Origin: Arthrobacter roseus
GTDB taxonomy: Bacteria; Actinomycetota; Actinomycetes; Actinomycetales; Micrococcaceae
Direction of reading: 5' to 3'
Assembly: GCF_016907875.1 (NCBI RefSeq)
Contig: NZ_JAFBCU010000001.1
Coordinates: 496,001 to 560,000 of the forward strand
Length of the DNA stretch: 64,000 nt
Below, piece after piece: positions 6,280 to 47,522 of the stretch (the stretch's first letter is position 1; every line of letters starts with the position of its first letter). A program made the translations under genes and the position numbers. A model generated the notes under the pieces. The model did not search any database. It was not told where the DNA came from and saw only the letters and a program-made list of their open reading frames with translations.

Positions 6280-6341
6280 AGCCCCGATCTGGTTGGGGCT
6301 GACTGGCGGTGGGAGGGACATTGTCCCTCCCACCGTCAGTC
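6280..6341. terminator. Double hairpin between csbD and mutY (convergent)
   Basis: A small hairpin AGCCCC/GGGGCT (6280-6285 and 6295-6300) is followed directly by a long near-perfect hairpin with 18-nt arms (6301-6318 and 6324-6341, one wobble pair). It lies between convergent genes and probably terminates transcription from both sides. Confidence 0.75.
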
Positions 6342-26790: not shown

Positions 26791-27512
26791 ACGCTGATGT
26801 CATCAAATATGTGGTGCTCGCAGTGGTCTTCGTTGGACTGCTGATGCGGTTGAAACCGACTATCGAGGGTAGGAACAACAGCATTTTCATTGCTCTTGCC
26901 CTCATGTTTCTCGGGATCGCGTTGAGTATCGAATCTATTTACCTGGTCGTGGATGGCACCCTTGGCGGGCACAATTACGCCAACCTCGTGATCCGCTTTG
27001 TGGTGTTCATTGCTTTCCTCATTTTCGGCGTCAAGATGGCAAAGGCCTTCAGTGCCCCATGGGCTGGCTGGTTGATCGTTGGTCCTGTTGGCCTTGTTGT
27101 ACTCGGTGCGTGTGCGGTGCTGGCCATCGTGTTCTTCGTCATGAGCGACCTGCCTCAGTCGTCGGTGGGTCTTCACGACTATGGCAACCAAGAACTGGTC
27201 CAGTGGTACGGCAGAGTCGGCAGGATTTACCCCGCGTATGTGGCAGCCTGCTTGATAGTGCCTGCGGCCACGTGCGCGTTGTCCAGCAGTGCTGCGGCGT
27301 TCACTCGGACCGCTGCGGCTTTTTTGGCAGCGGCCTTTTCCATCATGACGTGCTATGAAATTGGTCGGGAGCTCTGGTTGGTTCATGGCATCTGGGATGT
27401 CATCCTTCCCTTCGGCGCGGCGTTCTTATTGGCAGTCGGCCTGATCCTTTTCGTCGTTGCGCGCTATAGCGCGCAACGGACCAAGCGACCCAAAGCGTTA
27501 CCCGACTGTTAG
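26787..27512 (+). CDS. Uncharacterised polytopic membrane protein coupled to the HTH gene
   Basis: A 241-aa protein with about seven hydrophobic segments (for example YVVLAVVFVGLLMRL, IFIALALMFLGIALSI, LVIRFVVFIAFLIFGV, LIVGPVGLVVLGACAVLAIVFFVM, AAFLAAAFSIMTCYEI, LPFGAAFLLAVGLILFVVA). Loops are short and no enzymatic motif is seen. The start overlaps the upstream stop by 4 nt (ATGA). The strict two-gene coupling suggests the soluble HTH protein and this membrane protein function together. An AT-rich segment follows the stop. Confidence 0.65.
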   Translation: MNADVIKYVVLAVVFVGLLMRLKPTIEGRNNSIFIALALMFLGIALSIESIYLVVDGTLGGHNYANLVIRFVVFIAFLIFGVKMAKAFSAPWAGWLIVGPVGLVVLGACAVLAIVFFVMSDLPQSSVGLHDYGNQELVQWYGRVGRIYPAYVAACLIVPAATCALSSSAAAFTRTAAAFLAAAFSIMTCYEIGRELWLVHGIWDVILPFGAAFLLAVGLILFVVARYSAQRTKRPKALPDC

Positions 27513-29252: not shown

Positions 29253-29284
29253 CGAAGGCCGGAAGCCCATGCTTCCGGCCTTCG
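29253..29284 (+). terminator. Hairpin terminator after the GlsB-like gene
   Basis: 14-bp perfect stem (29253-29266 and 29271-29284) with the 4-nt loop CCAT, followed by TTGTTT. One of the clearest intrinsic terminators in the window. Confidence 0.88.
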
Positions 29285-34246: not shown

Positions 34247-34651
34247 ATGAACCGCCAAACCCTGTCTGCTGCGGGACTCGCCGCACTCCTCGCAGTCTCA
34301 GCGGTCAGTCATCGGCTCCAGCCCACGTTCTACTACTCGGTGGTGCCGCGCAGCCTCTGCACCGACAAGGACGGCCGGTTCGGCGTCATGACTCGTGAAC
34401 AGTGGATCGCTGTTTCGGCCGTTCCGGAGGTCGCGGCGGCCGTCGGACTGTTGATCCCGGCCACACGTACGACGGCGGCAGTCGCCACGGCGGTGATGTT
34501 CACCGGTTTTACTGCTGCTCACCTCAGCGGATTGCGCCGTGCTTTCGGTCCACGCGGTTCCCGCAGGGATCGTGTGATCAATGCAGTGCGTCTGCCGCTT
34601 CAAGCGCCGCTTATCGCGTGGGCCTGGAGTCTTCGCCGCGGGTCGGCGTGA
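34247..34651 (+). CDS. DoxX-like small membrane protein
   Basis: A 134-aa membrane protein with four hydrophobic segments (LSAAGLAALLAVSAVSH, WIAVSAVPEVAAAVGLLIPAT, TAAVATAVMFTGFTAAHLSGL, LPLQAPLIAWAWSL). Length and topology match DoxX-like/DUF4267-type families, which are poorly characterised. The 3' end overlaps the end of the convergent pyridoxamine-oxidase-like gene by 41 nt. Confidence 0.6.
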   Translation: MNRQTLSAAGLAALLAVSAVSHRLQPTFYYSVVPRSLCTDKDGRFGVMTREQWIAVSAVPEVAAAVGLLIPATRTTAAVATAVMFTGFTAAHLSGLRRAFGPRGSRRDRVINAVRLPLQAPLIAWAWSLRRGSA

Positions 34652-35081
34652 ACGCTCGACCACTGATTGTTTCTGGGACGAGGCGCATAAACCGGTCCTT
34701 CCGCCCGCTTTCCCAAGGGTGTAGCGGCAAACGCACACTGGCTATGAGCTCTGAGGTCACGGCAATCGTTGCGGCGCTACCTTTGACCACAACGCTCCAG
34801 ACAGTTTCTTGATGCGGTCCCTCTTCCTCAACGCTTCCTGGGGTGCCACCTGCAATCAGTCCGTCTGCTTCCAGGGCTGCTGGTGATTTCTCCGCCGCGT
34901 GTGATTTGGTGCCCTCGGATGTTCTGTAAACGATAGTTCCATGGTCAACGACGAAGTTGATGGGGAAAATCTCCGGTTGGCCATCGATGCAGAGCGCAAG
35001 ACGTCCTACTGGTGCGTCACGCAGGAATGCCCAGCACTCGTTGTCGGTAAGGATCCTTGCAGGTGTGGGTTCAGCTTCCAT
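34611..35081 (-). CDS. Pyridoxamine 5'-phosphate oxidase-like flavin-binding protein
   Basis: A 156-aa split-barrel protein with the pattern GRLALCIDGQPEIFPINFVVDHGTIVYRTSEGTK, typical of the FMN/F420-binding PNPOx-like families. Mycobacterial dormancy (DosR) regulons contain related proteins. The substrate is unknown. ATG 35081 is the start. The 26-bp palindrome at 35111-35136 lies 30 bp upstream, in the promoter shared with the divergent kinase gene, which suggests control by the local two-component system. Confidence 0.82.
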   Translation of the reverse strand: MEAEPTPARILTDNECWAFLRDAPVGRLALCIDGQPEIFPINFVVDHGTIVYRTSEGTKSHAAEKSPAALEADGLIAGGTPGSVEEEGPHQETVWSVVVKGSAATIAVTSELIASVRLPLHPWESGRKDRFMRLVPETISGRAFTPTRGEDSRPTR

Positions 35082-35110
35082 ACTGTGACACTATGAAAGC
35101 TCTGTCACAG

Positions 35111-35136
35111 CCAATAGGGCCGTTCGGCCCTATTGG
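35111..35136. promoter_or_regulatory. Perfect 26-bp palindrome, proposed DosR-like operator (box 1)
   Basis: Two 12-nt arms (35111-35122 and 35125-35136) pair perfectly around TT; the core is GGGCCG-TT-CGGCCC. It is located between the divergent PNPOx-like and histidine kinase genes. The half CGGCCCTAT recurs exactly in box 2. It could in principle fold as an RNA hairpin, but its position before two starts favours an operator. Confidence 0.65.
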
Positions 35137-35205
35137 TGACGTACTAGTCAGGCATGACAGCAGGGAGCTTCGAGTGCGGACACCATTGAGCAAGCATTCC
35201 CGACC

Positions 35206-36834
35206 ATGAACGATTACTCTCTTGCTTCCGGAACACCTGCTGGTATAGGTGATTTGCTCGCGGCGTTCGCTGCCATGGCCGACGACATCGATCTGGACAC
35301 AGTCCTCGAGCGTGTCATCTCCGCGGCATGCCAGTTGGTCGATGCCCGTTTCGGAGCCTTGGGCGTCATTGGACCGGATCGCATGCTCAGCCACTTCATT
35401 ACCGTCGGACTCCGGGATGACGAGGTCCAGAGGATCGGTGCTCTTCCCACAGGGCACGGTGTTCTTGGGTTGCTCATGAGTGAACCCCACCCTGTGAGGC
35501 TCAGCGATCTGCGTCAGCACCTTCGTGCCACAGGTTTCCCCGCCAATCATCCCCAAATGTCGTCATTCCTGGGTGTACCGATCCGTATTCATGGGACAGT
35601 TTTCGGCAACCTTTACCTCACTGAGAAGAACGGAGGAGCTGACTTCTCGGTGACGGATGAGCAACTTGTTGTCGCTCTAGCGGCGGCCGCTGGCGTCGCA
35701 ATCGAAAATTCGCGACTATTTGACGAGGCTACGCGCAGGACGCGGTGGCTCGAAGGCGGTCTCAACGCTGCGCATGAACTCCTCGAGCAGACGGATGATG
35801 CCCGCAATGACCTCGAACTTATCGTTCATCACGCCCTTTACGCATCCCACAGTGCTATCACCATGATCCTTCGCGATTTCGGCGCTAACGGCGACATCAT
35901 TTGTGAAGCTGCGGATGGGATGAAAGCCGGTCAATTTGTTGGACGATCAAGTGCTGACAGCACAGTGCTCGACGGCATGACGGCTGCGTCAAATCCGCTT
36001 CGACTGACGTTAGAGGACCTTGATCTTCTACTTCCGGAGATCTCGCAGGGAACGATCGAGACGGCTCTGTGCACGAGACTTGCAGGGACAGAGCAGCGAC
36101 AGTTTCTCCTCATCGCTCGGGCGAACGGATCCCCCGAGTTCGCTGCCGTCGACCACGAGATGATGCGGTCCTTCACCTCCCACGTGTCCCTGGCCCTTGA
36201 ATTACTCCGCGTTCACCGGGAGCGCGAACAGGAAGCGGTCTTTGGCGACCGTGATCGTATCGCACGAGACCTGCATGATGTGGTGATACAGCGTCTATTT
36301 GCAGCAGGACTCAGCATCCAGAGCCTGCGTAAATTCCTTCCCGACCGGGAGCCTCTGGAGCGGATCACAGCGGTAACTGCCGAACTAGACGCAACAATCA
36401 GGGAGCTGCGCGACACCATCTACTCGTTGCGCTCGATTCCGCAAATCACCCCAACCTTCACCTCAAGTATCTTTGCCCTCGTCGCGGATGCCTTCGATGG
36501 ACACGAACTGGAACCAGTTGTCCATCTCTCGGGCCCGCTCGACGCTGCCATCGATCCGGAGCGAGCTGACCACGTGCGGGCAGTTGTTCTCGAGGCACTA
36601 TCCAATGCACTCCGTCACGCCTCCGCGCGCGCCATCACCATTATGCTCAAGGCCCTCCCGGATCGGCTCGAGCTGAAAATCACCGACGACGGGCGCGGCT
36701 TCAGTCAGATCAGTTCCACAAGCGGCCTATCGAATATGCGGCGCCGCGCTGAACTCTGCGGGGGCACCCTGTCCATCTCAAGCTCCGTCGGGAACGGAAC
36801 GGTAGTCCTTCTGAAGGTGCCCCTGACCATTTAA
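35206..36834 (+). CDS. GAF-GAF sensor histidine kinase, DosS/DevS-like
   Basis: A 542-aa soluble sensor kinase. GAF-A (~15-165) includes GFPANHPQMSSFLGVPIRIHG followed by VFGNLYLTEK, closely like the haem-binding GAF-A of mycobacterial DosS/DosT; His115 falls in the region carrying the haem ligand. GAF-B spans ~185-335. The HisKA_3 dimerisation region has the phospho-acceptor His357 (DRIARDLHDVVIQRLFAAG). The HATPase domain ends the protein (VVLEALSNALRHA, ITDDGRGF, GLSNMRRRAELCGGTL). It probably senses oxygen, NO or redox state and phosphorylates the adjacent regulator. The gene is convergent with that regulator; their stops overlap by 4 nt. Confidence 0.88.
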   Translation: MNDYSLASGTPAGIGDLLAAFAAMADDIDLDTVLERVISAACQLVDARFGALGVIGPDRMLSHFITVGLRDDEVQRIGALPTGHGVLGLLMSEPHPVRLSDLRQHLRATGFPANHPQMSSFLGVPIRIHGTVFGNLYLTEKNGGADFSVTDEQLVVALAAAAGVAIENSRLFDEATRRTRWLEGGLNAAHELLEQTDDARNDLELIVHHALYASHSAITMILRDFGANGDIICEAADGMKAGQFVGRSSADSTVLDGMTAASNPLRLTLEDLDLLLPEISQGTIETALCTRLAGTEQRQFLLIARANGSPEFAAVDHEMMRSFTSHVSLALELLRVHREREQEAVFGDRDRIARDLHDVVIQRLFAAGLSIQSLRKFLPDREPLERITAVTAELDATIRELRDTIYSLRSIPQITPTFTSSIFALVADAFDGHELEPVVHLSGPLDAAIDPERADHVRAVVLEALSNALRHASARAITIMLKALPDRLELKITDDGRGFSQISSTSGLSNMRRRAELCGGTLSISSSVGNGTVVLLKVPLTI

Positions 36835-37472
36835 CGCGGTGGATCTGCTGGCCTTGAAATGAAGACCGCGGCTTGGGTACGACGCTGGAAGCCAAGCTTC
36901 GCCAGAAGCGAGGACACATAGTTCTTGACTGTCTTCTCCGCCAGAAACAACTCGGTGCCGATCTCCCGGTTTGTCAGACCTCCTCCGATCAACGCGAGCA
37001 CCTTCTTCTCCTGCGTTGTCAGGCCCGCCAAGCGCGAATCTTCCTCAGGTGCGTCGCGCAGTCCAGCGATGATGCGATCCTTCATCCCTGGTTCGAACAG
37101 AGACTCGCCTGCAGCAGCCCGGCGAACTTTCCCTACGAGGTCTGATCCGAGGATTTCCTTGAGAATGTAGCCGGCTGCGCCAGCAAGCACCGCACCCCGA
37201 AGCGCCTGATCGTCGTCGTAGCTGGTCAGGATGACGCACTTGAGGGACGAATCAACCGAGCGCACATCCCGACACACCTCGATGCCGCTCCCGTCCGGCA
37301 GTCTCGCATCCAAGATCGAGACATCCGGTGATAGTGCAGGAATCCGTCGGGTTGCTTCCTTGGCAGAGCCAGACTCTCCTACAACCACAAAGCCCTCACC
37401 TTCTAACAACTCCCGCAGCCCCAACCGAACCAACTCGTGGTCATCGAGTAGGAACACGGTTACGGCCTTCAT
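36831..37472 (-). CDS. NarL/LuxR-type response regulator, DosR/DevR-like
   Basis: A 213-aa regulator. The receiver domain has acidic D10-D11, phospho-acceptor Asp55 ([12 protein letters not shown]) and switch Thr/Lys ([15 protein letters not shown]). The C-terminal HTH reads [36 protein letters not shown]. The recognition helix (EKTVKNYVS) is the one used by mycobacterial DosR to read its 20-bp palindrome. ATG 37472 is chosen over 37505 because the fold begins at [13 protein letters not shown]. It is divergent from the universal stress protein gene, with box 2 between them. Confidence 0.9.
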   Translation of the reverse strand: [213 protein letters not shown]

Positions 37473-37593
37473 GCGTTGATTATCCACTCTGCCGGTATTT
37501 TGCACTTTTACCTCTCCACCTGACGTTCATTCTCAACCGTCATCAGCATGACGCGGTCTGCTCACGTAGGGCAGAGCCAAAGGTCCCAACCCA

Positions 37594-37619
37594 GCAGAGG
37601 GGCCCTTCGGCCCTATCCG
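37594..37619. promoter_or_regulatory. Palindromic operator candidate (box 2)
   Basis: GGGGCCC-TTCGGCCCTAT, centred on 37606-37607, shares the right half TTCGGCCCTAT exactly with box 1; the left arm matches with one central change. It lies between the divergent response regulator and universal stress protein genes, ~120-130 bp from each start. Confidence 0.6.
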
Positions 37620-37751
37620 CCCTCATCGGAACGAGCAACGATCGAAGGAGTACTCTCCCTCCCAGCCTAGAACCAACGAGAACGCAGGTTAGTGCAAGGC
37701 TCGGTTGCCGAGAGTCCAGCCCCGGTATTGCCAGCTATGAGGAGCGTCAGC

Positions 37752-38591
37752 ATGGACACGATCAACGGTCAGTCAAAACCAATCGTCGTTGGATACGACG
37801 GATCGGATGGCTCACGACGCGCCATGCTCTGGGCTGTTCGACATGCGGTAGCTTCAGGTTTGCCTCTCGTTGTCGTCCACTGTTGGGTGTGGCCGTACTT
37901 CACCCAGAACCTTGGACCAGTAACGGGCGTCGAGGACAGTGGTTTGCGACGGGAAGCGGAAAAGATCGCTGACGAAGGCCTTGAGCTGGCACGGAAAACT
38001 GAGCCGAATGTTGACGTGAGCGCAAGCCTCATCGTTGGTTTTCCCTCCGAAGTGCTGACAAGGATCTCAGTGGAAGCATCCTTACTTGTCACCGGTACCC
38101 GCGGTCTCGGAGGGTTTGCTGGATTGCTCATTGGATCGGTGAGTCTCCACCTCGCGGCCAGCGCCTCGTGTCCCATTGTGGTTGTCCGCGACGACCAACC
38201 GGAGGGTGACGTCTTGGTCGCCGTCGATGGGTCACCCGAAAGCGACCGATCCGTTACTACCGCTGCCCAGTTGGCTAAGATACTGCTCGTTCCCCTCCGC
38301 ATCATCCATGTTGCGCCGTACAGCTGGCACGCAGCTGACCGGCGCGGCGATGCCGCGAACGATCCCGTGATGCAACAAGCGGTGAACCTGTTGCCCAGCG
38401 ATACTGATCTTGCAGTGAGTCAGGACTTGTTCTTAGAGCCGTCAGTGCCTGGCGTCATTGTTCATCAGGCAAAGACTGCCGCCTGCGTGGTTCTTGGGGC
38501 CAAAGGACGCAACACGCTGGGTGCCCGGCTCGGATCAACCGTCCACGCAGTCCTGCACCACGCTCAAGGAAACGTCATCGTCGTCCGCTGA
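37752..38591 (+). CDS. Tandem-domain universal stress protein
   Basis: A 279-aa protein with two UspA domains. Domain 1 begins IVVGYDGSDGSRRAMLWAVRHA and has the ATP-site motif GTRGLGGFAGLLIGSVS. Domain 2 begins VLVAVDGSPESDRSV and has LGAKGRNTLGARLGSTVHAVLHHA. Both keep the G-x2-G-x9-G(S) pattern of ATP-binding Usp. Tandem Usp proteins of this type are prominent in mycobacterial dormancy regulons. ATG 37752 follows GAGGAGCG. Its promoter region contains box 2. Confidence 0.92.
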   Translation: MDTINGQSKPIVVGYDGSDGSRRAMLWAVRHAVASGLPLVVVHCWVWPYFTQNLGPVTGVEDSGLRREAEKIADEGLELARKTEPNVDVSASLIVGFPSEVLTRISVEASLLVTGTRGLGGFAGLLIGSVSLHLAASASCPIVVVRDDQPEGDVLVAVDGSPESDRSVTTAAQLAKILLVPLRIIHVAPYSWHAADRRGDAANDPVMQQAVNLLPSDTDLAVSQDLFLEPSVPGVIVHQAKTAACVVLGAKGRNTLGARLGSTVHAVLHHAQGNVIVVR

Positions 38592-38647: not shown

Positions 38648-39829
38648 TCAACGGTTGGGCTCCAGTACAACCTTGATGCAGCCGTCTTGCTTCTTCTGAA
38701 ACGTCTCGTACATGGCCGGCGCTTCGTCAATGCCTACACGGTGCGTCACCAGGTCCGCCGTTCCCAGTGGATCAGCAGGGTCCTCGACCAGCGGCAGGAC
38801 GTCGTCGATCCAGTTCTTCACGTTGCACTGACCCATCCGAACACTCAGTTGCTTGTCGAACATGGTGAGCATCGGCATGGGGCTGGTCTGCCCACCGTAA
38901 ACGCCGCTGAGGGAGAGTGTTCCGCCGCGACGTACTGCATCGATAGCACCATGCAGCGCGGCGAGCCTGTCTGATCCCATCGTCGACATGGCCTTCTGCG
39001 CGATCTTGTCCGGCAGCAACCCGACGGCGGCCTGGGCAGCGGCTGCCACAGGGGACCCGTGCGCTTCCATCCCGACGGCGTCAACCACCGAGTCCGGTCC
39101 GCGGCCATCAGTCATCTCTCGAAGTTCGTCTCCGGTGTGCTTGGTGAAATCCAATGTTTCCACGCCGTGCCGCTCTGCCATGGTGCGGCGTTCGGGGACT
39201 AGGTCGACGCCGATGACCCGGTAACCGAGGTGCGTTCCGATTCGAGCCGCGAACTGCCCCACCGGACCGAGTCCGTAGACGGCGAGCGTGCCGCCGTCGG
39301 GCACGTTGGCGTACTTCACTCCCTGCCAGGCGGTGGGAATGATGTCCGAGAGGAAGAGGTAGCGGTCATCGGGAAGTTCGCTGCCTACCTTGATGGGGCC
39401 GTAATCCGCGTGAGGTACGCGCAGGTACTGCGCCTGCCCGCCGGGGACCGCGCCGTAGAGCTGCGAGTAGCCGAACATCGCGGCGCCGCTACCCTGATTA
39501 CGGACCTGCGTGGTCTCGCACTGGGACTGGAGGCCTCGGCGGCACATCCAGCAGGTGCCGCAGGCAATGTTGAAGGGGATGACCACGCGGTCACCGACGA
39601 CGAGGTTGTTTACGCCCGGGCCCACTTCTTCCACGGTTCCCATGGACTCGTGACCGATGATGTCGCCGGGGGTCATGAAGGGGGTGAGCACTTCATAGAG
39701 GTGGAGGTCGGAGCCGCAGATCGCGGTTGAACTGATCTTGATAATGACGTCGGTGGGTTCCAGGATTTTCGGGTCCGGTACCTCTTCGACGCTCACGGAC
39801 CGGCGTGCCTGCCACGTGACTGCCTTCAT
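38648..39829 (-). CDS. Zinc-dependent alcohol dehydrogenase (MDR family)
   Basis: A 393-aa medium-chain dehydrogenase. Catalytic zinc ligands are in CGSDLHLY and GHESMGTVEEVG. The structural zinc cysteines are in CGTCWMCRRGLQSQC. The NAD(P) site is VYGLGPVGQFAARIG. The size and long insertions are like glutathione-independent formaldehyde dehydrogenase-type enzymes, so the substrate could be an aldehyde or alcohol. ATG 39829 has an AGGAGCGACC ribosome site. It lies downstream of pta-ackA on the same strand, with a 79-nt gap, and fits a fermentative role under low oxygen. Confidence 0.88.
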   Translation of the reverse strand: MKAVTWQARRSVSVEEVPDPKILEPTDVIIKISSTAICGSDLHLYEVLTPFMTPGDIIGHESMGTVEEVGPGVNNLVVGDRVVIPFNIACGTCWMCRRGLQSQCETTQVRNQGSGAAMFGYSQLYGAVPGGQAQYLRVPHADYGPIKVGSELPDDRYLFLSDIIPTAWQGVKYANVPDGGTLAVYGLGPVGQFAARIGTHLGYRVIGVDLVPERRTMAERHGVETLDFTKHTGDELREMTDGRGPDSVVDAVGMEAHGSPVAAAAQAAVGLLPDKIAQKAMSTMGSDRLAALHGAIDAVRRGGTLSLSGVYGGQTSPMPMLTMFDKQLSVRMGQCNVKNWIDDVLPLVEDPADPLGTADLVTHRVGIDEAPAMYETFQKKQDGCIKVVLEPNR

Positions 39830-39908
39830 GGTCGCTCCTTCTCCTGTGGTTGTGTGCGTTTTCCCAAACTAACTGCTCAGGATGGCCGCCGCCAGAGACT
39901 TAGCAAGA

Positions 39909-41045
39909 TCACTGATTATTTTGTTCACCGATGACGGCGGCAGTCGCCTCCGCGATGGCGGCCTCCTCATCGGTCGGGATCACCAGGACGGGGAACGCGG
40001 ATTCCTCGGTGCTGATTTCGCGTGGTTCGTTGCTCTTTTTACGGTTGGCTGCGTCGTCGAGGCTGATTCCCAGGGCGCCGAGACGCTCGACGACCGACTG
40101 TCTGAACTGCCACGAGTTCTCACCGATGCCAGCGGTGAAAACGAGAGCTTGCGCTCCGCCGACGGCCACGTGGTACGCCCCGATGTACTTTGCCAGCCGG
40201 TACGAGGCCACTGCCAACGCGATCGCGGCCTGCTCGTCGCCGTCGGCTGCCGCTTCTTCGGTGCTGCGCATGTCGTTGTTGCCAGCCATACCCTTGAGGC
40301 CGGAGTCCCGGTTCAGCAGCTGATCCAGATCATCGGTGGAATACCCTTCGCGGGCCAGGAAGATCAGGATCGACGGGTCAATATCGCCAGACCGCGTACC
40401 CATGACCAGGCCCTCGAGCGGCGTGAAGCCCATGGACGTGTCGATGCTCTTGCCACCGGAGACTGCCGTGATCGACGCGCCGTTGCCCAGATGCGCCACT
40501 ATGCCATTGAAGTCCGAGGCACCCACGCCCAGCAGCTTCGCCGCATGCCGAGACACGAATTCGTGCGACGTTCCATGAAAACCGTAGCGGCGGATACCGT
40601 ACGTTCGGTACAGCTGGTCGGGAATGGCGTAGCGCCAGGCATGCTCGGGCATGGTTTTGTGGAACGCTGTGTCGAATACCGCCACTTGCGGTAACTTGGG
40701 CCATTTCTTGGTGATGGCCCTGATTCCCAGGACGTTCGCGGGATTGTGCAGAGGCGCCAGCGGGTTGAGGCGCTCGATGGCTCGCGTGATCTCGTTATTG
40801 ATCAGTACCGGTTCGCCGAACCGCTCACCGCCGTGCACCACGCGGTGGCCGACGGCGTCGAGAGCACGCTCACCGAGAACCCGCGTTAGCTTCTGATCCA
40901 CCTGATCGAGTGCCTGGGCGTGGTCTGTCACCTCGGACTCGCCGATCCGTTCAATGAGGCCTTCGGTCAAAACGGAATCATCATTGGTGTCCCTGACCTG
41001 ATATTTGAGGGATGAGGAACCGGAATTGATGATGAGAATCAGCAT
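39909..41045 (-). CDS. ackA: Acetate kinase
   Basis: Converts acetyl phosphate and ADP to acetate and ATP (reversibly). 378 aa. Signatures: LIINSGSSSLKYQV at the N-terminus, VFDTAFHKTMPEHAWRYAIP, AHLGNGASITAVSGGKSIDTSMGFTPLEGL, and FTAGIGENS. ATG 41045 (preceded by GGGAGAG) overlaps the 3' end of pta by 7 nt; a longer reading to 41120 is rejected. The pta-ackA pair gives substrate-level ATP when respiration is limited. Confidence 0.97.
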   Translation of the reverse strand: MLILIINSGSSSLKYQVRDTNDDSVLTEGLIERIGESEVTDHAQALDQVDQKLTRVLGERALDAVGHRVVHGGERFGEPVLINNEITRAIERLNPLAPLHNPANVLGIRAITKKWPKLPQVAVFDTAFHKTMPEHAWRYAIPDQLYRTYGIRRYGFHGTSHEFVSRHAAKLLGVGASDFNGIVAHLGNGASITAVSGGKSIDTSMGFTPLEGLVMGTRSGDIDPSILIFLAREGYSTDDLDQLLNRDSGLKGMAGNNDMRSTEEAAADGDEQAAIALAVASYRLAKYIGAYHVAVGGAQALVFTAGIGENSWQFRQSVVERLGALGISLDDAANRKKSNEPREISTEESAFPVLVIPTDEEAAIAEATAAVIGEQNNQ

Positions 41046-43129
41046 GTACTCTCCCTTGAGTTTTCTTGTGCCTGAATAGCCGTGATGGCCACAGTGTTGA
41101 CGATGTCCTCCACCGTGCATCCCCGCGACAGATCGTTGACGGGTTTCCGTAGCCCCTGCAGGACGGGACCGACGGCGACGGCGCCCGCTGATTGCTGGAC
41201 CGCTTTGTACGTGTTGTTGCCCGTGTTCAGGTCAGGGAAGATGAAAACGGTGGCTTGTCCGGCCACTTCGGAGTCCGGCATTTTGGAGGCTGCGATGGAA
41301 ACGTCCACGGCGGCGTCGTACTGAATTGGCCCTTCAACAGCCAAGTCCGGACGCGATTCCCGCACGATTTCCGTGGCCCGCCGAACCTTTTCGACGGCTC
41401 CGCCCGAACCCGATGCCCCCGTGGAGTAGGACAACATCGCTATGCGGGGATCCACACCAAACTGTGCGGCAGTCTCAGCCGAGGCGATCGCGATGTCGGC
41501 GAGCTGCTCGCTGCTGGGATCCGGGTTCACGGCACAGTCCCCGTAAACCAGGACGCGATCTTGAAGGAGCATCAGGAACACGGAGGAAACGATCTTCACG
41601 CCCTCACGCGTGCGGACGAACTCCAATGACGGCCGGATGGTGTTGGCCGTGGTGTTCGCGGCCCCGGAGACCATCCCGTCCACTTCGCCAAGCTGCACCA
41701 TCATGGTGCCGAAGTAGGCGCCGTCGAGCATGCGCTCACGGGCCTCGTCGAGCGTGACACCCTTGTGCGAGCGCAGCCGCGCGTACTCCAGTGCATACTT
41801 TTCCCGGAGCTCAGATGTGGCCTGATTAACCAGGGTCAGCCCGGAAATGTCTATGCCCTGGCTAGCTGCCAACTCGCGGATCTGCCCTTCGGGGCCGAGG
41901 ATCACGAGGTCACAGACGTCGCGCCGTTGCAGGATTTCCGCGGCCCTGAGGATGCGGGGGTCCAGACCCTCCGGTAAGACGATGGTCCGGCGATGAGACC
42001 TGGCGCGCTCGATCAGCTCATGCAGGAAGCGCAGCGGAGTCATCTTCATGGGGCGGGGAAGTTCCAACCGCTCCAGCATTTCCACTTGGTCCACGCCGCG
42101 GGACCAGATGCCGAGGGCCGCGGCAGACTTCCTTGGCATGCCCGTGGCGATCTCGCCGCGTACGTCGCTGATCTTGCGGGCGGCCGTGTAGGTGTCGTCG
42201 TCAACGGAGAGGACGGGGAACGGTGCTTGCGCGAGCATGGGCAGCAGTTGCGGATCCGGTGTTAGCCCACCGGTCAACAGCAGGGCGGCCGGGACGGGGG
42301 CATCAGAGGAGAGCGATGAGGCCAGAGTTGCCAGCATGATGTCAGCGCGGTCCCCGGGGGTGATGACCAGCGAACCGTCGTCCAGGGCGGCAAGGAAATT
42401 ACTCGCGCTCATGGCGGCCACCTTAATGGAGACGACGTCGCGTTCAAGGGTGGGGCTTCCGGCCAGGTGCCGGGCGTTCAGGGCCGAGACGACCTCAGCG
42501 ACAGTGGGACGCGAAATTTCCTCAAGTTCAGGCAGCACATAGACGGGCCGCCGGGAGGCTCCGGGTCGAACAGCGGCCCGGATGGCTTCGACGTCGTCCT
42601 CCTGGGCGCGATTGACCATCATGGCCAGCAGTGACGCCTTCATTGCGACGAGTTCCTTACGGGCGACGTCGACGGCGTCGGCAGCCTCAGCGACCGTCAT
42701 GGCCCTGGCATTGACGACGGCGAGGACCATGGCGCCGAGATTGTTCGCGAGACGTGCGTTGAGGTCGAATTCCACGGCGGAATCGTGCCCGGTGAGGTCT
42801 GTTCCCTCAATGATGATGACGTCGCACTCGCTGCTCATCTCGCTGTAAACGGCCACGCAGCGGGTGTCGATCTCTTCGCGTTGCCCTGCCACCAGCAGCG
42901 CCCGGGCTTCAGCTCGGGTGAGGCCTCCGCGCGACGCCGAGGGGGCCAGGTTGAAGCTGCGCTGCATCAGCTGAACCATCGGGTCCGAGGTGACGTCGTC
43001 GCCTTCAACAATGGGGCGGAAGAAACCGATCCTGTCCGCGTGCCGGTGAAGCGTATCAGCTAGGCCCAGACTGATCAGGGACTTGCCTGAACCTGCGGTC
43101 ATGGCACTTACATAGATTCCTCGGGTCAT
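41039..43129 (-). CDS. pta: Phosphate acetyltransferase (long form)
   Basis: Makes acetyl phosphate from acetyl-CoA and phosphate. 696 aa, the long form. It has an N-terminal BioD-like P-loop region (GIYVSAMTAGSGKSLISLGLAD), a central DRTGG domain (ASNFLAALDDGSLVITPGDRADIM) and the C-terminal PTA_PTB catalytic domain (RTIVLPEGLDPRILRAAEI, SYSTGASGSG, GPIQYDAAVD). ATG 43129 is the family start (MTRGIYV); an extension to 43177 is not conserved. It is coupled to ackA by a 7-nt overlap. Confidence 0.96.
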   Translation of the reverse strand: MTRGIYVSAMTAGSGKSLISLGLADTLHRHADRIGFFRPIVEGDDVTSDPMVQLMQRSFNLAPSASRGGLTRAEARALLVAGQREEIDTRCVAVYSEMSSECDVIIIEGTDLTGHDSAVEFDLNARLANNLGAMVLAVVNARAMTVAEAADAVDVARKELVAMKASLLAMMVNRAQEDDVEAIRAAVRPGASRRPVYVLPELEEISRPTVAEVVSALNARHLAGSPTLERDVVSIKVAAMSASNFLAALDDGSLVITPGDRADIMLATLASSLSSDAPVPAALLLTGGLTPDPQLLPMLAQAPFPVLSVDDDTYTAARKISDVRGEIATGMPRKSAAALGIWSRGVDQVEMLERLELPRPMKMTPLRFLHELIERARSHRRTIVLPEGLDPRILRAAEILQRRDVCDLVILGPEGQIRELAASQGIDISGLTLVNQATSELREKYALEYARLRSHKGVTLDEARERMLDGAYFGTMMVQLGEVDGMVSGAANTTANTIRPSLEFVRTREGVKIVSSVFLMLLQDRVLVYGDCAVNPDPSSEQLADIAIASAETAAQFGVDPRIAMLSYSTGASGSGGAVEKVRRATEIVRESRPDLAVEGPIQYDAAVDVSIAASKMPDSEVAGQATVFIFPDLNTGNNTYKAVQQSAGAVAVGPVLQGLRKPVNDLSRGCTVEDIVNTVAITAIQAQENSRESTC

Positions 43130-43249
43130 GTCCTCATCTTGCCAAACGTGCGCCGCGCTGGCCATGATCCGCCGCACACATCACCAAACGGTAGTGAGCG
43201 GCTGGAAGTTCTGCATCGCTGCGTCCGCTGTGATCACCGGTGCGCACGA

Positions 43250-43484: not shown

Positions 43485-43508
43485 CGTTCCGACCCTTCGG
43501 CCCGGTAG
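43485..43508. promoter_or_regulatory. Weak palindromic operator candidate (box 3)
   Basis: GACCCTTCGGCCC, centred on 43496-43497, matches box 2 in the central CCCTTCGGCCC, but the outer left arm is degenerate. It is upstream of the permease remnant and, beyond it, the pta-ackA genes. Confidence 0.4.
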
Positions 43509-45840: not shown

Positions 45841-45862
45841 AGAGGGGCCCGGGCCGGTCATA
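45841..45862. promoter_or_regulatory. Degenerate palindromic box (box 4) upstream of the crp operon
   Basis: AGAGGGGCCC (45841-45850) is identical to the left half of box 2; the right half (GGGCCGGTCATA) is only partly similar. It is 45-66 bp upstream of the membrane-protein start at 45907. Confidence 0.35.
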
Positions 45863-47440: not shown

Positions 47441-47522
47441 GCAGTCACTCTCTCGGCACCCTGGTTGACCCCTGCATCACCCTGCTTGAGCCCTATATTA
47501 GGAAAGACTGGAGATCATCCCC

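Follow-up and report, generated by a model that had tools for sequence, protein, structure and literature searches.

A predicted DosR/OsdR-type switch in Arthrobacter roseus, with three promoter boxes at one fixed distance from -10-like hexamers

Two related palindromes lie on either side of a histidine kinase and response regulator pair in Arthrobacter roseus, which raises the question whether they are operators of that regulator and, if so, which genes they serve. The genome is a single contig of 3.08 Mb, and the window, meaning the whole 64,000-nucleotide stretch analysed, covers its bases 496001-560000; all positions below are those of the window. The genes are ordered PNPOx-like (minus strand), kinase (plus), regulator (minus) and universal stress protein (plus). 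Box 1 occupies the PNPOx-kinase spacer and box 2 the regulator-universal stress spacer, and the kinase and regulator genes meet tail to tail with a 4-nt overlap at 36831-36834. The answer reached is that this is a system of known kind with an unusually readable promoter layout. Its features are as follows.

34611..35081, minus strand: PNPOx-like gene, 156 aa (Pfam PF12900, 84 bits), box 1 target with a predicted leaderless mRNA
35088..35093, minus strand: TAGTGT, -10-like hexamer assigned to PNPOx, separated by 22 bp from the core of box 1
35111..35136, no strand: box 1, predicted operator, CCAATAGGGCCGTTCGGCCCTATTGG; 16-bp core 35116-35131, AGGGCCGTTCGGCCCT; score 22.7 of a maximum of 23.2
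35206..36834, plus strand: sensor histidine kinase; heme GAF domain of DosT/DevS type (His115, Tyr137, Gly53), HisKA_3 (His357) and HATPase
36831..37472, minus strand: DevR/OsdR-type response regulator, 213 aa, Asp55, receiver and GerE domain
37545..37550, minus strand: CATGCT, -10-like hexamer assigned to the regulator gene, separated by 22 bp from box 2a
37573..37588, no strand: box 2a, weak regulator-proximal predicted operator, minus-strand sequence TGGGACCTTTGGCTCT; score 3.9 alone
37594-37619, core 37599..37614, no strand: box 2, predicted operator of the universal stress gene, core GGGGCCCTTCGGCCCT; score 18.2
37637..37642, plus strand: AACGAT, -10-like hexamer assigned to the universal stress gene, separated by 22 bp from the core of box 2
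37752..38591, plus strand: universal stress protein, 279 aa from the ATG at 37752, two Usp stretches (Pfam PF00582, 134.7 bits)

Among proteins of solved structure, DevR is nearest to the regulator (216 bits), followed by VraR (121) and NarL (100), and the NCBIfam model of MadR gave 141 bits where its cut-off is 300. VraR, NarL and MadR resemble the regulator in combining a receiver with a GerE domain but score lower than DevR. Identity to DevR extends over 111 of 204 residues (54%) and over 39 of 58 in the DNA-binding domain, and the phospho-acceptor is Asp55. The stretch EKTVKNYV at the recognition helix is unchanged from DevR, as expected from the initial annotation, which had likened it to that of DosR. 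Lys179, Lys182 and Asn183 of DevR have known roles, and K182 of DevR and base C8 of the box are reportedly needed for binding, as the title of one study has it.

For the first GAF domain of the kinase, the five best PDB matches were chain 2vzw, which we take to be DosT, and after it four DevS GAF-A domains. In alignments counted by hand, His115 and Tyr137 coincide with DosS His149 and Tyr171, and Gly53 stands at the position of DosS Glu87 and aligns with DosT Gly85. A review (PMC4082495) gives His149 of DosS as the proximal heme ligand and Tyr171 as the distal residue, and reports the proposal, about which it voices doubts, that the glycine of DosT allows stable oxygen binding. Two features of DosR/OsdR systems are present here, namely a NarL-type regulator with DevR as nearest relative and with the DevR helix, and a kinase whose GAF-A domain carries the proximal His of the heme and the distal Tyr. 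The earlier proposal of a DosR-like two-component system is supported, together with matching operators by the PNPOx, regulator and universal stress genes.

The Streptomyces counterpart of DosR/DevR is OsdR, which bound all seven of the regions examined by gel shift (PMC5069765). The 26 predicted OsdR sites printed in Table 1 of that report were symmetrised into a weight matrix that is independent of the window's genome. Box 1 departs from the published OsdR consensus AGGGCCGATCGGCCCT in one central base of 16 (PMC5069765), and the suggestion that the locus uses a shifted operator sequence is thereby contradicted. The operator is already known, being of the OsdR type; what is new is the 22-bp spacing from box to hexamer.

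After boxes 1 and 2 the next-best site in the 64-kb window scored 10.1 with the OsdR matrix, and a 3-Mb Markov sequence held one site scoring at least 18. An exact match to AGGGCCGWWCGGCCCT was found in the genome at box 1 alone; with two mismatches there were six places including box 2, the other five scoring 13.6-15.7, below box 2. As had been noted, box 2 is present at 37594-37619 and shares TTCGGCCCTAT with box 1. This string occurs at three places in the 3.08-Mb genome; at the third, with a score of 2.9, a 466-codon frame runs over it. Box 1 had been described as a perfect 26-bp palindrome, and its two 12-bp arms are indeed perfect, but the central TT is not palindromic. Inverted repeats with arms of at least 12 and loops of at most 4 were absent from 20 first-order random versions of the window, and the real window holds three perfect ones besides box 1, so that a palindrome by itself is not special. 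These three (arms 12-14 bp, loops 0-4) are at 6307-6335, 27455-27478 and 29253-29284; the last is terminator-like, and that at 27455-27478, CGTTGCGCGCTATAGCGCGCAACG, is loop-free and without explanation. The inverted repeat CTGTGACA...TGTCACAG at 35083-35110, inspected by eye, is not conserved in relatives except for the part at the -10 position.

As a GC-rich perfect dyad with a short loop, box 1 might be read as an RNA hairpin, and the palindromes in general as terminators or 5' UTR structures and not as protein sites. We give this reading almost no credence, considering that both boxes lie between divergent genes, where no transcript end is expected, and upstream of the starts in the proposed promoters. 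Moreover, 17 of 34 relatives' boxes scoring at least 9 are non-complementary at positions 5 and 12, which weakens a stem but is seen among the predicted OsdR sites as well. An Rfam search of the window returned four tRNAs and nothing else.

Box 2a lies 26 bp from box 2, centre to centre. It is decayed in the window, and with its score of 3.9 it escaped the initial annotation for that reason. Boxes 2 and 2a resemble the pair at the divergent tgs1-Rv3131 promoters of Mycobacterium tuberculosis, where sites P and S are described and the secondary site is filled cooperatively (PMC3029386).

The hexamer NANNNT was counted at each distance from every site scoring at least 3, giving 48 boxes at 24 loci including the window. 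It stood exactly 22 bp from a box at 19 of the 24 loci toward the regulator and at 17 of 24 toward the universal stress gene, the loci being related and several from one genome, so that these are not independent events. At the other offsets from 10 to 35 at most 8 (regulator-ward, reached at offset 25) and 3 (universal stress-ward) of the 48 boxes had such a hexamer. The reversed matrix found 14 boxes against 48 for the true one, and in neither direction did any of the 14 have a hexamer at offset 22. Among distant loci offset 22 was again the highest (8/33), as counted by an automatic one-box rule that mispicked the universal stress box in the window and at some loci, where the 24-locus count takes every box. 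Toward PNPOx the hexamer was 22 bp from the box at 14 of 15 loci, L217 being entered as a miss as the rule picked the wrong site; offset 20 also occurred there in 9 of 14 by the one-box rule, from an overlapping CATAGT. Toward the kinase none of the 14 loci with a readable hexamer had one 22 bp from box 1, spacing 22 alone being examined in that direction. Since the 22-bp spacing is seen toward PNPOx and not toward the kinase, PNPOx seems to be the gene that box 1 serves as operator, and the feedback loop may leave out the kinase gene. The initial annotation had placed the boxes in both divergent promoters, which agrees with the layout at the PNPOx, regulator and universal stress genes but not on the kinase side of box 1.

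In the window and in 14 of 14 relatives the PNPOx ATG is preceded by a TAnnnT hexamer whose end lies 6 nt from it, so that the PNPOx mRNA is probably leaderless. In loci L153, L155, L163, L167, L168, L171 and L187, of the Micromonosporaceae, TAGAAA or a hexamer like it abuts the aligned regulator start at 22-23 bases from a box, which suggests a leaderless regulator mRNA there. The -10 hexamers of the regulator and universal stress promoters are without the usual first T. If the -10 hexamer begins at -12, the box centre falls at -42.5, and a box centred near -42.5 is in the usual position for a class II activator.

Activation is not the only way to read this layout. The regulator might mainly repress through the boxes, or answer to a signal other than oxygen or NO, such as redox, and for DosS itself a role as gas or redox sensor has been debated (PMC4082495). 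We consider this rather unlikely here, in view of the class II position of the box centre, of the heme ligand residues kept in the kinase, and of the -35 overlap shown by DevR targets (PMC3029386). According to the same source, these targets carry close-packed boxes of which the start-proximal one overlaps the -35 element. The corresponding feature, a promoter-proximal box overlapping -35 and often paired, is predicted in the window from the hexamers 22 bp away, and pairs occur in relatives.

Conservation of the boxes is strongest near to home. In the 250 bp upstream of the regulator gene, the top-scoring site reached at least 10 at 19 of 23 fetched same-family loci (three of them from genome G031 and two each from G366 and G299), and at 1 of 23 with the reversed matrix. 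Over 128 loci, 44 had an upstream site of at least 10 (reversed matrix, 6), or 42 of 125 distinct upstream sequences (reversed, 6). Sorted by regulator identity, such a site was found in 18 of 19 distinct upstream regions at 81% or more (reversed, 1), in 4 of 28 at 68.5-81% (reversed, 0) and in 20 of 78 below 68.5% (reversed, 5). Judged by the OsdR matrix, good conservation of the box on the regulator side is confined to close relatives, and some distant ones match. A GGGnC-N4-GnCCC box next to the genes of the regulator and a universal stress protein, another feature of DosR/OsdR systems, is found in the window and its close relatives; the low count at 68.5-81% identity means that the box is changed or absent in many Arthrobacter-like relatives.

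On the kinase/PNPOx side of the 23 relatives, sites scored at least 8 in 8, at least 10 in 4 and at least 12 in 1, the reversed matrix giving 1 at each threshold. By eye, an AGGG...CCCT-like dyad, usually weaker than box 1, keeps a constant place near PNPOx in 14 of 14 intergenic sequences, in which the PNPOx-kinase spacer varies from 120 to 265 bases. In the regulator-universal stress spacers two boxes were seen by eye in many loci, one by each gene, and a counterpart of box 2a stands at a like place in relatives. A universal stress homologue of at least 57% identity adjoins the regulator in 17 of the 23 relatives.

Counting the regulator itself, 16 proteins of the genome match it at E<=0.001, and the boxes could in principle be operators of another NarL/LuxR-type protein among these. 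This is very unlikely, since the next best match is only 37% identical, the boxes accompany the adjacent DevR-like orthologues in close relatives, and they match OsdR sites. The neighbouring regulator is preferred as the protein that would bind them.

Of 395 genomes sampled from the family, taken to be Micrococcaceae, 151 encode a protein related to the regulator at E<=1e-70, and none was found at that threshold in the one other sampled genome of the same genus; its distribution in the family is patchy. The regulator of Arthrobacter bussei is 87% identical, and Arthrobacter sp. U41 has a 71% identical one on a 166-kb plasmid (NZ_CP015734.1, 109307-109915). Genome G031 has three copies of the regulator-kinase pair (L069, L070, L071), all with boxes, and regulator copies with single in-frame stops were seen in some relatives, G137 and G363 among them. 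The kinase and regulator genes converge in the window and at 38 of 39 same-family loci, representing 37 distinct regulator genes, with two places counted twice and L077, on a 3-kb contig, omitted. Another 70 named loci were examined, and 48 of them had a kinase no more than 4 kb away, of which 29 were convergent, 15 codirectional and 4 divergent. A family-specific convergent layout was therefore rejected, 29 of 48 other named Actinomycetota loci being convergent as well, and the operon arrangement is treated as variable and not defining.

How far the regulon may reach was addressed at several scales. The weaker copies proposed at 43485-43508 (score 5.4) and 45841-45862 (0.7) are at chance level on the OsdR matrix, as is the half-site at 47485 before the AhpD-like gene (-11.6). 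The extension of the regulon to sites near the Pta, CRP-like and AhpD-like genes is not supported: these scores are chance-like, and the genome shows no excess of the motif over the reversed control. Past the universal stress gene, the minus strand at 38648-43177 encodes a Zn-dependent dehydrogenase, acetate kinase and Pta, resembling a fermentative gene set; the OsdR matrix found no site above 8.8 there. Genome pattern searches gave 55 hits against 78 for the reversed pattern, 5 against 6, 73 against 105 and 441 against 589, so that no wider regulon was detected, in searches that are blind to sites as weak as box 2a. Regulons of known DosR/OsdR systems run to dozens of genes. The places inspected beyond the window (19 rows, two listed twice, and four further loci) yielded no convincing target promoter; a reading-frame test on them was non-discriminating, boxes 1 and 2 also lying under chance frames. 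Within one genus, genomes with the regulator averaged 11.4 sites (n=26) and those without it 7.8 (n=12, P=0.02), and the reversed control differed likewise (26.0 and 19.9, P=0.04). The regulon may consist of only these genes; weak boxes elsewhere would escape the pattern searches.

Comparison with OsdK/OsdR (SCO0203/SCO0204) of Streptomyces coelicolor brings out both likeness and difference. Besides the near-identity of box 1 to its 16-bp consensus, the PNPOx (SCO0214) and universal stress (SCO0200) genes are predicted OsdR targets too, and predicted OsdR boxes cluster around the regulator gene (PMC5069765). In contrast, osdR and osdK form an operon where the genes here are convergent, and 43 sites are predicted there, with nitrate reductase genes among the targets (PMC5069765), where three promoters are proposed here. 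The likeness to DosS-DosT/DosR (DevS/DosT/DevR) of Mycobacterium tuberculosis lies in the 54% identical regulator and the heme GAF kinase. In that species devR and devS form an operon, and the mycobacterial DosR consensus half-site is GGGAC, whereas the half-site here is GGGCC. The present locus differs further in that the neighbouring kinase has the DosT-type Gly, the genes are convergent and the reach is small. Joint location of kinase and regulator in one operon, as in the known systems, is not found here.

From the gene content, the match of the boxes, their conservation in close relatives and the fixed spacing, we infer that a compact DosR/OsdR-type switch for oxygen, NO or redox, with three promoters under class II boxes, is highly probable. 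The kinase (35206-36834) would probably bind heme in its first GAF domain. Loss of oxygen from the heme, or binding of NO or CO, would make it autophosphorylate at His357, and the phosphate would pass to Asp55 of the regulator. A phosphorylated regulator dimer would then bind the GGGnC-N4-GnCCC boxes, centred at about -42.5 and overlapping -35, and recruit RNA polymerase as a class II activator. In this way it would induce three promoters: that of PNPOx through box 1, its own through box 2a and that of the universal stress gene through box 2. The last two boxes make up a strong and weak pair that is likely filled cooperatively. The kinase may be made independently, without such a promoter. More tentatively, and less likely than not, the locus could be a minimal, separately wired switch, in which fixed-spacing class II boxes control the regulator gene and two effector genes, the lone neighbouring DosT-like kinase stays outside the positive feedback, and tail-to-tail read-through could damp the partner gene.

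In a literature search by title and abstract that covered few subscription journals, no paper on a DosR-type system of Arthrobacter or Micrococcus was found. The present findings place a well-studied dormancy control system in an Arthrobacter-like family. They also suggest that a rule of box, 22 bp and -10 hexamer may pick out target promoters even where the box is weak, and they offer a small system in a non-pathogen for measuring sensing and class II activation at three promoters.
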